Positions 3,336 to 34,926 of a stretch of DNA of 64,000 nucleotides are shown one piece after another (position 1 is the stretch's first letter; every line of letters starts with the position of its first letter). The notes below the pieces were generated by a model. That model had not been told where the DNA came from. It ran no database searches and worked only from the letters and a program-made list of their open reading frames with translations. This stretch comes from Pseudoalteromonas viridis (GTDB lineage Bacteria; Pseudomonadota; Gammaproteobacteria; Enterobacterales; Alteromonadaceae). The stretch covers positions 62,001-126,000 of the forward strand of contig NZ_CP072425.1 of NCBI RefSeq assembly GCF_017742995.1. The letters are read 5' to 3'. Position numbers and translations under genes: made by a program.

Positions 3336-3412
3336 TGGCGGAGTGGACGGGACTCGAACCCGCGACCCCCGGCGTGACAGGCCGGTATTCTAACCAACTG
3401 AACTACCACTCC
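3336..3412 (-). tRNA. tRNA-Asp (GTC), copy 7 in transcription order
   Basis: A 77-nt gene including an encoded CCA. The acceptor stem is GGAGTGG/CCACTCC, the anticodon loop CTGTCAC carries GTC between CCGGC/GCCGG arms, and the T-loop is GGTTCGAGTCC. It is the last gene of the seven-gene array transcribed on the minus strand. Confidence 0.97.
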
Positions 3413-3444
3413 GCAGTGGTATGACTTTTTATGCTTATATCAAA

Positions 3445-3521
3445 TGGCGGAGTGGACGGGACTCGAACCCGCGACCCCCGGCGTGACAGGCCGGTATTCT
3501 AACCAACTGAACTACCACTCC
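3445..3521 (-). tRNA. tRNA-Asp (GTC), copy 6
   Basis: Identical over all 77 nt to the other copies (anticodon GTC, encoded CCA). It is separated from the next copy by a 32-nt AT-rich spacer. Confidence 0.97.
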
Positions 3522-3558
3522 GCAGAGATATAATGCAACTTTTTACTCGTTAAAATGT

Positions 3559-3635
3559 TGGCGGAGTGGACGGGACTCGAACCCGCGACCCCCGGCGTGA
3601 CAGGCCGGTATTCTAACCAACTGAACTACCACTCC
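3559..3635 (-). tRNA. tRNA-Asp (GTC), copy 5
   Basis: Identical in sequence to the other copies. The spacer on its 5' side (3636-3722) is the longest in the array, 87 nt. Confidence 0.97.
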
Positions 3636-3722
3636 ACGAGCAAATAACGATGTTTTTGACGTCGTTTTGTCATAAACTCAGACTACATTGAATCTGATAA
3701 TCCAAACTAAACCCTGGCTAGA

Positions 3723-3799
3723 TGGCGGAGTGGACGGGACTCGAACCCGCGACCCCCGGCGTGACAGGCCGGTATTCTAACCAACTGAACTACCACTCC
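3723..3799 (-). tRNA. tRNA-Asp (GTC), copy 4
   Basis: Identical in sequence to the other copies, anticodon GTC, CCA encoded. Confidence 0.97.
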
Positions 3800-3834
3800 A
3801 CGGTGGTTTAGCTCGGTGTACTTCTTAAAGATGT

Positions 3835-3911
3835 TGGCGGAGTGGACGGGACTCGAACCCGCGACCCCCGGCGTGACAGGCCGGTATTCTAACCAACTGA
3901 ACTACCACTCC
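3835..3911 (-). tRNA. tRNA-Asp (GTC), copy 3
   Basis: Identical in sequence to the other copies. The spacer to the next copy is 27 nt. Confidence 0.97.
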
Positions 3912-3938
3912 AAAGAAGTACTGCACAGGATAAGCGAT

Positions 3939-4015
3939 TGGCGGAGTGGACGGGACTCGAACCCGCGACCCCCGGCGTGACAGGCCGGTATTCTAACCAA
4001 CTGAACTACCACTCC
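3939..4015 (-). tRNA. tRNA-Asp (GTC), copy 2
   Basis: Identical in sequence to the other copies. A 27-nt spacer separates it from the first copy. Confidence 0.97.
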
Positions 4016-4042
4016 AGCGTGCGCTTATAGAGAAAAAGTAAG

Positions 4043-4119
4043 TGGCGGAGTGGACGGGACTCGAACCCGCGACCCCCGGCGTGACAGGCCGGTATTCTAA
4101 CCAACTGAACTACCACTCC
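4043..4119 (-). tRNA. tRNA-Asp (GTC), copy 1 (promoter-proximal)
   Basis: First gene of the array in the direction of transcription, identical in sequence to the others. The predicted promoter lies 52 nt upstream of its 5' end. Confidence 0.97.
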
Positions 4120-11845: not shown

Positions 11846-12883
11846 ATGAAAATGACAGCGCAGATTACGACTTTAGGTGAACTACTGACTTCAGCCGGCA
11901 CGCAATGGCGCGCCTATGATATTGGCCGTCGCATAACCAAAATCGATAAAAAGCAGTTTGCGCAAATCGAAACCACTCAGGTGCCCTACCCTTATCCGCT
12001 CGCTGGTCATGCCCTGTTGGCAATTCAGTTCTGGGATAACCAGGCGACCCAGGACCCATATGTATGGTTTCTGAAGCTACCGCTGGATGAACAGAGCAAA
12101 CTGGTTGCTGCCAGCCGTGACCACTTTGCCTCTATGGTGATTGACGCGTTAGGTACGCAGCTCACCGGCGAAGCGGCGCAAGGCAAACTGGATAACAACC
12201 TCTATGTCTATGCGCCTAACGCCAATAAACTGGCCGCGTTTAATGCTTTACTGAAAACTGAACTCAAACGTCCAGCGTCACAATATTACGAATATGCCGA
12301 ACTGTATTTTGCACAAAAGCTGGGGCTAGATCAGTGGCAAAACCTGGCAGTACAGGGCCTGGCCGACTTTGCTATGCGTCTGGAGCACGGCAGCAATCGT
12401 GATAATTTGAAAGCCTGCTGGTCACACCTTCCTGCACAAGTACAATCTCCTCTGGCTGCCATGCTGGAGCACGTGGCCATTGGCGTTGAGCTGACCGAGC
12501 ACTTGCTTAGCGGCCTGAAAACAGCAGTAGAAAGCGAAGATCTGGCAGCCAGTATTAACTACCTCAGAGCCTTGTCTGGCAGTCATAGTCTGGGGCTGAT
12601 TGCGGAAGCAGTAGACACTATTTTGGACTCTTCACTCGCGGCGCAAGCTGATTTGCAACTGACCATTACCGGACGTTGCTGGGAGACTCTGACCGACTCA
12701 CTAAGGCTTATCAAACTGATGGATTGTGCCGCTCACAACACTGAAGTGGACGGCTTATTTGAAAGCATTTTCGCCGATCTGGTTGCAATTCCGACACTGC
12801 GCCCACATGTCTTAGCTCTACTTAGAACAGAAAATCGCAGTGAAACACTGTCCAGGGCAATAGGCAGGCTATTTAAACGATGA
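11846..12883 (+). CDS. DUF3549 family protein
   Basis: A 345-residue protein with the DUF3549 opening ITTLGELLTSAGTQWRAYDI followed by GRRITKIDKKQF. The family is found in Shewanella, Vibrio, Pseudoalteromonas and relatives and has no known function. The start may be ATG 11846 or ATG 11852; the second has better spacing from the GTGAG upstream. It overlaps the next gene by ATGA, so the two form a coupled pair. Confidence 0.85.
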   Translation: MKMTAQITTLGELLTSAGTQWRAYDIGRRITKIDKKQFAQIETTQVPYPYPLAGHALLAIQFWDNQATQDPYVWFLKLPLDEQSKLVAASRDHFASMVIDALGTQLTGEAAQGKLDNNLYVYAPNANKLAAFNALLKTELKRPASQYYEYAELYFAQKLGLDQWQNLAVQGLADFAMRLEHGSNRDNLKACWSHLPAQVQSPLAAMLEHVAIGVELTEHLLSGLKTAVESEDLAASINYLRALSGSHSLGLIAEAVDTILDSSLAAQADLQLTITGRCWETLTDSLRLIKLMDCAAHNTEVDGLFESIFADLVAIPTLRPHVLALLRTENRSETLSRAIGRLFKR

Positions 12884-13182
12884 TCACTCTTTGGCTTTTT
12901 ATTCTTATCGGCGCAGTCATTGCGTTCTTTTGGTTTGGCCGTCAGATAGCAGAGGCGGCACAACAGCATGCGGTTGGACAAGCTGAAAAGCTCAATGTCC
13001 AGCTACTCAGTGTAGCCTGTGTTAAACGCAGGCTCGCCGTGCTGAGTAATGGCAGGCTGGGAATAAAAAGTCAATTTGCCTTTGAGTTCAGCTCAGATCA
13101 GCAAAGTGCCTATACCGGTACTATGCACCTAGAAAACCTGCGCCTTAAAAAGATGGATATTCCACCGCACCGAATAGGCTGA
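12880..13182 (+). CDS. DUF3301 domain small membrane protein
   Basis: A 100-residue protein with one N-terminal membrane helix (LWLFILIGAVIAFFWFG), then HAVGQAEKLNVQLLSVACVK and a strand-rich tail. This matches DUF3301, which follows DUF3549 in related genera. Start and stop of the two genes overlap by 4 nt (ATGA). Function unknown; a single-pass inner-membrane protein with most of its mass on one side is the safest description. Confidence 0.83.
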   Translation: MITLWLFILIGAVIAFFWFGRQIAEAAQQHAVGQAEKLNVQLLSVACVKRRLAVLSNGRLGIKSQFAFEFSSDQQSAYTGTMHLENLRLKKMDIPPHRIG

Positions 13183-13280
13183 TTGGTGTTACCGTGCTGT
13201 TCACTGAAGATGACTAACGTGATAGGTTGATATGTGAAGTTAGGGCGTGATAGTAAAGCATACTGTGTGGTGAACTGAAT

Positions 13281-13313
13281 AAAAAAACCAAGGCGTAACC
13301 CTTGCGCTACGCC
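13281..13313 (-). terminator. Rho-independent terminator of the CsrB-like RNA
   Basis: On the minus strand GGCGTAGC and GTTACGCC pair (8 bp including one G-U) around GCAAGG. An alternative stem CAAGG/CCTTG sits closer to the run of seven T at 13281-13287. Either fold gives a GC-rich hairpin followed by a U-tract. Confidence 0.78.
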
Positions 13314-13570
13314 CCAATCTGACGAATTTCCTGGGAGGTATCCGATACCTCTGCCTACAACAAACTAGCAAGCCGCCAAGCTTCATCATCCCCTGAACGG
13401 GTATACATCCTGACACACCCGATCTTCTTCCCTGACTTCATCCGATAGGTTACATCCTGTAGATATCCTTACCGCATCCAAGCACATCCTTTGTCGGCCG
13501 ATGTGAACAGTTTCGCACCTGTCGACGTGTCTTCCCTATTCCTTTTATAAACAACGTCCTTTTGTGTCCT

Positions 13571-14160
13571 GAGCCATCCTGACTCTATCCACTTCGCTTA
13601 TCCTAAGCGCTCCTGACCTTCCCTTGCTTAACACCGTCCTGATGTTATCTGAGCCATCCTGACTCTGTCCTCTTCGCTTTTCCTAAGCGCTCCTGACCTT
13701 CCTTTGGTTAACATCGTCCTGATGTTGTCTGAGCCATCCTGACTCTGTCCTCTTCGCTTTTCCTAAGCGCTCCTGACCTTCCTTTGGTTAACATCGTCCT
13801 GATGTTATCTGAGCCATCTTGACTCTGTCCTCTTCGCTTTTCCTAAGCGCTCCTGACCTTCCTTTGGGTAACATCCTCCTGATGTTGCCTGAGTCATCCT
13901 GACCCTATCCTCTTCGCTTTTCCTAAGCGCTCCTGACCTTCCTTTGGTTAACATCGTCCTGATGTTATTTGAGTCATCCTGACTCCATCCTCTTCGCTTT
14001 TCCTAAGCGCTCCTGACCTTCCTTTGGTTAACATCGTCCTGATGTTATTTGAGCCATCCTGACTCTGTCCACTTCGCTTTTCCTAAGCGCTCCTGACCTT
14101 CCTGTGGTTAACATCGTCCTGACGTTATCCGAGCCATCCTGACTCTGTCCGCTTCACCTC
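13571..14160 (-). repeat. Tandem 80-bp repeats inside the CsrB-like RNA
   Basis: The plus-strand landmark GACTCTGTCC (or a one- or two-base variant) recurs at 13581, 13661, 13741, 13821, 13901, 13981, 14061 and 14141, exactly 80 bp apart. This gives seven full copies and one partial copy. Copies differ by a few substitutions, many of which keep hairpin stems: GGCTC becomes GACTC opposite GAGTC at 13961, and AACATC becomes AACGTC with a G-U pair near 14120. One loop has decayed from AGGAT to AAGAT at the 13801-13820 copy. There are no unique spacers, so this is not a CRISPR array. Confidence 0.9.
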
Positions 14161-14352
14161 TTCCTGGCGCTGGTGTCCTTCCGTCCTTGAACATGATTAA
14201 GTTTACGCAATCCTGGACAATGAAAAAGGCGCTTTTTCGCATGCTTTTTTTCGTCATTTACTTGAAACAATGAAAAACTATTTATTATTCATGCCGTTAA
14301 TTGTTTTTTAGGGGTTAAAGCAGTAGGTCTAAAACGCCTTAACCTACAACCT

Positions 14353-14370
14353 TGTGAGAAAAGTCTCACA
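14353..14370 (-). promoter_or_regulatory. GacA/UvrY-box-like palindrome upstream of the CsrB-like RNA
   Basis: The 18-bp sequence reads TGTGAG-ACTTTT-CTCACA on the minus strand. It fits the known GacA/UvrY upstream element TGTRAG-N6-CTYACA that activates csrB, rsmY and rsmZ. It lies about 140-150 bp upstream of the first GGA hairpins, comparable to the far-upstream site of enteric csrB, and overlaps the stop codon of the GNAT gene. The same palindrome could serve as a hairpin at the end of the GNAT transcript, but no U-run follows it. Confidence 0.65.
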
Positions 14371-15022
14371 GGCTTTTTTCCATAATGGCTGCTCGTGTTT
14401 TAAACAGCAGTTCGCCCTGAACTGACTTGAAGGTTAAAACCTGAAATTTTTCATAGCCATGCTGGCGAAAAAAGGCATTCTGATCAGCCTCTGACACAAA
14501 CACGCCAAGGCCACTGGCGACGGGGTTTTCTTTTACCAATTCATCCAGCGCATCCAGTAAATGATGTCCCAGGCCCTGGCCCTGGTAGTGCGGCTCAACG
14601 GCGATAAAAGACAAAAAATAATAATGCCCCTGCTCCGCCAGCGCTTCGCGAATGGTTTTTTCTTTGTCTATTAACTGCTGTGTTTGTAGATATCCGGCGC
14701 TCATCATTAATCGTAAACGCCAGTCCCAGCGTCGCGAGGCCTGTAACTCGGTTTGCGCTTCAAACACGCACGCAATCGCAAGCAGAGACTGCGCCTGATA
14801 CAACCCAATCAAGGGCTGAGCTGACTGGCCAAAGCACGACAGCTCCTCGCGGATCAATGCACGCAGACGTGACTCATAAGTCTGCGCATCCGAGCCCCCC
14901 AGCACATCTTTAAATAACTTATCATCGTGGTAGGCCCTGTATAACAGACTGGCAGCTACAGTACTGTCTTCGGGGAGTAAATGTTTAACGGTTAGTTGTG
15001 CGCTGGATGCCGGGTTAGTCAT
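14366..15022 (-). CDS. GNAT family N-acetyltransferase
   Basis: A 218-residue protein with the acetyl-CoA binding motif in VEPHYQGQGLGHHLLDAL (Q/R-x-x-G-x-G/A), preceded by the beta-4 strand YYFLSFIAV. The ending NAFFRQHGYEKFQVL is typical of the fold. The substrate is unknown. It lies directly upstream of the CsrB-like RNA on the same strand, and its stop codon is inside the predicted UvrY box. Confidence 0.86.
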   Translation of the reverse strand: MTNPASSAQLTVKHLLPEDSTVAASLLYRAYHDDKLFKDVLGGSDAQTYESRLRALIREELSCFGQSAQPLIGLYQAQSLLAIACVFEAQTELQASRRWDWRLRLMMSAGYLQTQQLIDKEKTIREALAEQGHYYFLSFIAVEPHYQGQGLGHHLLDALDELVKENPVASGLGVFVSEADQNAFFRQHGYEKFQVLTFKSVQGELLFKTRAAIMEKSL

Positions 15023-33813: not shown

Positions 33814-34926
33814 TTATTGAGGTTCGACGTAATCGACAACTTCTAAGTGGAAGCCCGACAGTGCGTGATATTTTTTCGGTAAACTCATCAGGCGCATTTT
33901 GCTGATCCCCAGATCAGCGAGAATTTGAGAGCCCACACCCACGGTTCTGGAGGTGCCCTGGAACTTACGATAATTGGGTTTTTCACCGGCATCTTCCGCT
34001 GCAAACGCCTTCACCAGCTGCTCCAGATCTTCGGTTTTCTCTTGTTTACCAAGGATCACTAACACACCGTCATTATCCGCGATGTACTTCATTGCGCCAT
34101 GTAAGGTCCAGCTGCGATCTGCACTGCGGTCTGACAACAAAGTATCATTGAACGTACTTTGCAAATGCACTCTGACCAGGGTTGCCTCGTCAGCATTGAT
34201 TTCGCCTTTAAGCAGTGCGTAATGTAACTGGTTGTCTATGGTGTCTTTATAAGTAACCAGCTCGAACTCGCCATATTCAGTTGGCAGTTTACACTGGGCC
34301 ACTTTTTCGATGGTCGTTTCGTTGAGGTTACGATATTCGATTAGATCGGCGATGGTGCCAATTTTGATGTCATGCTCTTTGGCGAACACTTCCAGCTCTG
34401 GGCGTCTTGCCATGGTGCCGTCCGGATTGAGGATTTCCACAATCACAGAAGAAGGCTCAAGGCCTGCCAGGCGCGCTAAGTCGCAACCTGCTTCGGTGTG
34501 ACCTGCACGGGTCAAGACCCCACCGGGCTGTGCCATAATTGGGAAGATGTGGCCAGGCTGCACTATGTCTTCAGGCACCGCGCCTTTGGCGACTGCAGCC
34601 TGGACGGTGCGGGCACGGTCGGCCGCTGAAATCCCCGTCGTCACGCCTTTGGCAGCTTCGATAGACATAGTAAAATTGGTTGAAAACTGGGCGCCGTTGT
34701 TTTTCACCATCAGCGGTAAGTCAAGCTGCTGGCAACGCTCCTGCGTCATGGTCAGACAGATCAAGCCACGGCCGTAGGTCGCCATAAAGTTAATGGCTTC
34801 TGGCGTGATATGCTCCGCCGCGATGATCAGATCGCCTTCATTTTCCCGGTCTTCATCATCCATAAGAATGACCATTTTACCGGCTTTGATGTCGTCGATG
34901 ATTTCTTGTGCGCTGTTTAAGCTCAT
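33814..34926 (-). CDS. 3,4-dihydroxy-2-butanone 4-phosphate synthase with degenerate GTP cyclohydrolase II-like domain (RibBX type)
   Basis: 370 residues. The N-terminal RibB domain (about 1-200) is intact: [53 protein letters not shown] and [11 protein letters not shown]. The C-terminal domain (about 205-367) aligns with GTP cyclohydrolase II in [17 protein letters not shown] and in the end region, but the zinc-binding Cys motif (C-x10-C-x-C) is absent, so cyclohydrolase activity is unlikely. This fits the RibBX group described for gammaproteobacteria, whose second domain is not a cyclohydrolase. RibB makes the four-carbon precursor of lumazine from ribulose 5-phosphate. A separate ribA must supply the pyrimidine; none is in this window. 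Confidence 0.9.

Follow-up and report, generated by a model that had tools for sequence, protein, structure and literature searches.

A csrB gene predicted to be enlarged by tandem 80-nt hairpin units in a Pseudoalteromonas close to P. rubra

Background

Through the number of binding sites that they offer, CsrB-type RNAs control how active a global regulator is. The window considered here (the whole stretch of 64,000 nucleotides that was analysed) includes a segment at 13281-14220 whose minus strand is crowded with GGA motifs, and the question is what this segment is and how it came to be so large. A preliminary description, made from the sequence letters, took it for a CsrB-type sponge two to three times larger than usual. 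We believe with high confidence, on the comparative evidence given below, that the segment is a csrB gene, predicted to specify a UvrY/GacA-driven minus-strand CsrA sponge of about 0.9 kb that is enlarged by tandem units.

Results

Read on the minus strand from 14220 to 13281 (940 nt), the segment contains 65 GGA, 52 AGGA and 28 CAGGA, against two GGA on the plus strand. In 1000 dinucleotide shuffles of 13281-14220 the mean was 35.9 for GGA (maximum 49) and 13.8 for AGGA (maximum 24), and every other 940-nt stretch on either strand of the window, 13000-14500 set aside, has at most nine AGGA. The list of open reading frames holds none of at least 60 aa inside 13281-14220. The figure of about 50 AGGA in a gene-free stretch, given in the preliminary description, is thus confirmed. 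Its extent needs some correction: the minus strand is GGA-rich as described, and the RNA itself probably starts further in (see below). Coordinates are collected in Table 1.

Table 1. Features of the putative csrB locus and its surroundings (positions in the window)
Feature	Position	Strand	Basis
yqcC (DUF446), csrB neighbour in E. coli	11394..11717	minus	Pfam, E. coli annotation
DUF3549 gene, anchor of the genus survey	11846..12883	plus	Pfam
DUF3301 gene, converging on the csrB terminator	12880..13182	plus	Pfam
Putative csrB-type RNA, about 906 nt, 64 GGA	13281..14186	minus	GGA content and local fold; 5' end estimated
3' domain, non-repeated	13281..13568	minus	contains ACCCGTTCAGGGG
Intrinsic terminator, hairpin and T-run	13285..13320	minus	terminator search; compensated stem changes in related species
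Tandem array, 7.3 copies of an 80-nt unit	13569..14155	minus	Tandem Repeats Finder, repeat search, unit listings, local fold
UvrY/GacA-type inverted repeat TGTGAGACTTTTCTCACA, then TGTAGGTTA 4 bp downstream	14353..14370	minus	sequence, compared with the E. coli site
GNAT acetyltransferase gene, upstream; 3' end overlaps the inverted repeat	14366..15022	minus	ORF, Pfam
syd, csrB neighbour in E. coli	16625..17188	minus	Pfam, E. coli annotation

The neighbourhood is that of csrB. The genes here include syd, DUF2789, GNAT, the RNA, DUF3301, DUF3549, yqcC, a pseudouridine synthase (truC) and a flavodoxin (yqcA), with queF beyond syd; the annotated order in E. coli K-12 is yqcA, truC, yqcC, csrB, syd, queF, with csrB on the syd/yqcC strand, and the strand relation of the RNA to syd and yqcC is the same here. 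The E. coli UvrY site TGTGAGAGATCTCTTACA is centred at -183/-182 and has a partly conserved TGTAGGAGA 5 bp downstream (PMC4682653). A downstream TGTAGG element accompanies the UvrY-type site of the present locus as well. If the E. coli distance is applied, the RNA would start near 14179, which coincides with the onset of the GGA-rich sequence. The 5' end thus probably lies near 14179-14190, for a length of about 0.9 kb; the value of 14186 used in Table 1 carries a margin of about 10 nt, and a start at 14179 would remove two GGA. The promoter scan gave no sigma-70 match at the expected start.

The covariance comparison with Rfam CsrB (RF00018) proposed in the preliminary description gave local matches at this locus with E=1e-10 and 3.2e-10; at 45.6 bits, the score stays short of the 71 that is the family cut-off. 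Genome-wide, CsrB gives three matches at E<=0.001, and all of them fall here. None of the 99 genomes of the genus passes the cut-off. The genus scan used stricter filters and so missed this locus, and it was replaced by a survey anchored on the DUF3549 gene; RF00018 also fails to match another Csr-type RNA in the genome (described below), and its performance in Pseudoalteromonas is poor. CsrA and UvrY are each represented in the genome by a single gene over the family cut-off. For a putative CsrD, a factor of RNA decay, the best NF008281 match reaches 204.7 bits (cut-off 663), and CsrD is absent from some species with Csr RNAs (PMC7652899). The DUF3549 protein is 98% identical to its homologue in P. 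rubra S2471. The identification of the segment as a csrB ortholog, in a Pseudoalteromonas near P. rubra, is well supported by sequence and synteny.

Several other observations concern this genome and the window. A putative second Csr-type RNA of about 387 nt with 22 GGA lies on contig G000:C1 at approximately 2135945-2136331, behind a UvrY-type site TTGTGAGAGATCTCTCACTA. Further UvrY-type inverted repeats occur at 991903, 2001630 and 2736811 on G000:C1 and at 311074 on G000:C2; the three on G000:C1 have two to six GGA at +100 to +500 on either side, and the two Csr-type RNAs have 29 and 21. The window also includes seven tRNA-Asp (gtc) genes in a row (3336-4119, minus strand) and, at 34729-34829 on the plus strand, a stretch that scores over the cut-off for V_AS9, an Rfam family of Vibrio antisense RNAs.

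None of 20 shuffles of 14200-13281 reaches the predicted fold stability of the native sequence (z -5.9). When pairing partners are kept within 40 nt of each other, 25 of the 64 GGA of the RNA 14186-13281 fall in hairpin loops, the position reported in the preliminary description, and 44 are fully unpaired; for E. coli CsrB computed likewise, the numbers are 10 and 15 of 22. The mean unpaired probability is 0.79 for GGA bases against 0.47 for all bases. At least partial pairing is predicted for 20 of the 64 GGA, and successive GGA are spaced by a median of 11 nt, so that fewer than 64 sites may be usable; the best spacing for bridging is given as more than 18 nt (PMC7652899).

A U-run terminator had been noticed earlier, and the terminator search returns a hairpin with a T-run at minus-strand 13320-13285. 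A comparison of 44 distinct 3' domains shows double-sided changes that preserve pairing at several positions of the terminator stem; one pair is formed in only 84%. This alignment was selected by the 13-mer ACCCGTTCAGGGG, so the invariance of the 13-mer within it is by construction. Of 90 genomes, 50 have ACCCGTTCAGGGG in their csrB region; they come from several groups of the genus, and conservation this exact is not accounted for by GGA binding alone. The segment CAGGAAAUUCGUCAGAUU directly precedes the terminator. It is alike in position to the RNase E site of E. coli CsrB, an unstructured segment just 5' of the terminator guarded by CsrA (PMC5027483), and one might guess by analogy that it would serve as a CsrA-guarded RNase E site in this RNA.

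The array has a period of 80 with 93% matches and no indels (Tandem Repeats Finder), and its sequence matches a single place in the whole 5.55-Mb genome. The "exact 80-nt units" of the preliminary description are therefore exact in period only, the copies being about 93% alike; similarly, the RNA is built from repeats in 13569-14155, and 13281-13568 is without them. Each unit has five to seven GGA. In a typical unit, read 5' to 3' on the minus strand, three hairpins are predicted, with stems CGCUU/AAGCG, GAGUC/GGCUC and AACAUC/GAUGUU and GGA in the loops; extra GGA lie in the linkers.

The units bear traces of selection. For the unit alignment we took 44 units (38 distinct) between anchors in seven genomes, leaving out partial end units. 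The average variation is 0.010 in the columns of the six GGA and 0.134 in other columns; seven of the 264 GGA sites differ, three of these being merely shifted. Across 16 stem pairs there are 557 Watson-Crick, 44 G-U, 2 A-C and 5 other cells, where a cell counts sequences and not independent events. The 44 G-U against 2 A-C point to an RNA read from the minus strand, since in a plus-strand RNA the G-U pairs would become A-C mismatches.

These data bear on the proposal that the segment is no sponge RNA at all, being instead a non-transcribed repeat, a coding repeat or an actor on the plus strand. We consider this extremely improbable. Unit lengths vary and most of them (79, 80, 88 nt) are not multiples of three, which speaks against a coding repeat, as does the list of open reading frames; the 65 to 2 ratio of GGA and the stem changes favour the minus strand; and the terminator, the UvrY-type site and the synteny also count against the proposal.

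The comparison with csrB loci of other Pseudoalteromonas, also proposed earlier, relied on the DUF3549 anchor, which all 99 genomes have. As much as 4.5 kb of adjoining sequence was examined in 98 of them and in the window, and four of these stretches (G027, G031, G035, G036) are cut by contig ends. A cluster of at least 15 GGA occurs at the orthologous locus in 93 of the 99. Six genomes are without it; in four of them (G064, G029, G098, G035) a csrB-like DNA match lies at another genomic position, and for G045 and G047 the genome search gave no such match. In the 90 genomes with the whole region and a cluster, GGA numbers 18-80 (median 25) over a span of 253-1045 nt. In 41 of the 99, the cluster is preceded by the strict UvrY-type pattern; in luteoviolacea-like G054 and G063 the pattern is degenerate.

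Tandem arrays were called in 25 of the 99 genomes, in four groups: P. rubra-like (unit 79-81 nt, 5.6-9.3 copies, seven genomes), P. luteoviolacea-like (87-89 nt, 3.8-6.8 copies, 11 genomes), a group with units of 108-110 nt (2-3 copies; G031, G032, G080, G087, G096) and one with units of 124 nt (2-3 copies; G017, G034). Group names are taken from 28 named loci. Where the region is whole, GGA numbers 56-80 in the seven rubra-like and 51-72 in ten luteoviolacea-like genomes; P. piscicida/peptidolytica-like loci have 36-41, with no array called. Among genomes assembled in two contigs, the present one (G000) has 7.3 copies, G060 8.6, G078 7.4 and G074 6.7; some copy numbers in the survey are uncertain, because assembly breaks coincide with the RNA in at least three cases (G027, G031, G036). 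As to one or several origins of the arrays, one unit per group was aligned, and one of 500 GGA-preserving shuffles reaches the score. Two trees disagree on what is nearest to P. luteoviolacea, one giving P. rubra-like and the other P. piscicida-like genomes.

Genome size is correlated with GGA number (Spearman 0.77 in 90 genomes, 0.58 in the 73 that remain when both large-array groups are removed). Contrasts on an 81-genome tree give a mixed result, with r=0.35 (p=0.0016; sign-flip p=0.0001; rank test p=0.09); the link is suggestive and only partly robust to relatedness.

Units are 0.94 alike within a genome and 0.83 between genomes, a sign of homogenisation or re-amplification. Such turnover, together with copy numbers that range from 5.6 to 9.3 among rubra-like relatives, would also be expected if the locus is csrB and its extra units are a neutral by-product of slippage, with lowered expression keeping the total CsrA-binding capacity unchanged. 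We regard this as possible, if somewhat unlikely. The GGA columns and stems are conserved while other columns vary, and the GGA counts of the rubra-like and luteoviolacea-like genomes (56-80 and 51-72) also weigh against it. Conservation and counts mean that the units have been kept usable; they do not amount to a demonstration that total capacity rose.

A further proposal would make the copy number an evolvable dial, with recombination within a species resetting the global CsrA balance. The exact period, the similarity of the units, the different copy numbers of related genomes (including the two-contig ones with 7.3, 8.6 and 7.4) and the fact that four groups have lengthened the RNA with different units (about 80, 88, 109 and 124 nt) all agree with it. 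The differences seen, however, all lie between genomes that belong to distinct species-level groups, and copies may be miscounted in some assemblies; we find the proposal unlikely. Equally doubtful in our opinion is its narrower form, in which, in two Pseudoalteromonas groups, the addition and removal of whole hairpin units by recombination would change the number of CsrA dimers per RNA stepwise and hence the set-point of the CsrA regulon.

Beyond the genus, RF00018 has a match in 203 of 394 genomes of the order. The best 30 of these loci have 19-41 GGA over 259-566 nt, so the rubra-like 56-80 GGA are the largest measured, in a sample that is small and drawn by a model that may miss large divergent RNAs. 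A hunt for giant sponges by CAGGA triplets in the 394 genomes was given up: the pattern is not discriminating, as many genomes score high from ordinary sequence (high counts also occur in G137, G148, G377 and G397). One of several outliers, G337, whose control counts are low, was rejected as a giant CsrB; its listed matches are mostly a 7-nt simple repeat.

Discussion

We presume the following mechanism for the csrB gene proposed here. Phosphorylated UvrY/GacA, bound at the inverted repeat 14353-14370, would switch on transcription of the minus-strand RNA of about 0.9 kb. The RNA would form a string of short hairpins with GGA in loops and linkers and would soak up CsrA dimers, freeing the mRNA targets of CsrA. 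Such an action has been demonstrated for E. coli CsrB (PMC7652899) and for Pf1-Pf3 of this genus (PMC11882849, PMC9927453). The 80-nt unit, with three hairpins and about six GGA, would have been amplified in tandem, giving 2.5-3 times the sites of E. coli CsrB per RNA, in line with the size first suggested. E. coli CsrB binds about 18 CsrA subunits with 22 GGA (PMC7652899). Scaling these nine dimers by GGA number would give a capacity of about 26 CsrA dimers per RNA.

The earlier assignment to the CsrB type is strengthened by the synteny with E. coli, a UvrY-type repeat at the E. coli distance, the conservation of GGA columns, the strand-specific stem changes and the genus-wide GGA clusters at the orthologous locus. 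The earlier statement that such a sponge had not been described holds for the array form, as far as the literature was searched: among open-licence full texts, supplements excluded, no description of an array-built CsrB was found. It does not hold for normal-sized Csr RNAs of the genus, which have been published (PMC9927453, PMC11882849). These have at most 25 GGA. PMC11882849 surveyed 672 Pseudoalteromonas genomes; the names P. rubra and P. luteoviolacea are absent from its main text, and its Supplementary Data 1 may include matches in these species.

A tandem-enlarged csrB suggests a route by which a bacterial protein sponge grows in evolution. The orthologs at one locus, from 18 to 80 GGA and the largest made of similar units, form a natural test series. 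With it one could ask directly whether CsrA activity is governed by the number of sites, by the number of RNA molecules or by both, and whether a bacterial regulatory RNA is tuned through tandem repeats.

Among known systems, E. coli CsrB (RF00018) is one of the closest. It has the same neighbourhood, GGA in hairpin loops, a UvrY inverted repeat far upstream and an intrinsic terminator; it differs in having 369 nt and 22 GGA against about 906 nt and 64 GGA here, where the Rfam score is under the cut-off. To our knowledge, E. coli CsrB has no tandem unit of such a kind.

Pf1, Pf2 and Pf3 of P. fuliginea, which belong to the same genus and are dense in GGA (25, or 21 in the first paper, for Pf1; 21 for Pf2; 9 for Pf3), are CsrA antagonists by experiment (PMC9927453, PMC11882849). 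Unlike the present RNA, they are not described as tandem-unit arrays in the consulted parts of these papers. Pf1 has a GacA-type site CGTGAGACATCTCTTACA, and 16 letters matching this site occur at the csrB locus in G032 and G070, so that Pf1 is probably an ortholog of the csrB-locus RNA.

There are other ways to enlarge a pool of sponge RNA. In other genera, pairs of CsrB matches lie about 700-1100 nt apart on one strand (for example, G110:C19, G373:C21, G108:C1 and G317:C110), which suggests tandemly duplicated csrB genes. RsmX, RsmY and RsmZ of Pseudomonas are likewise GGA sponges under GacA, and in P. brassicacearum whole-gene duplication has multiplied rsmX (PMC7911923). These RNAs are much shorter (rsmX-2 has 110 nt), and in Pseudomonas separate genes were multiplied, whereas at the locus reported here the multiplied units lie inside one predicted RNA.
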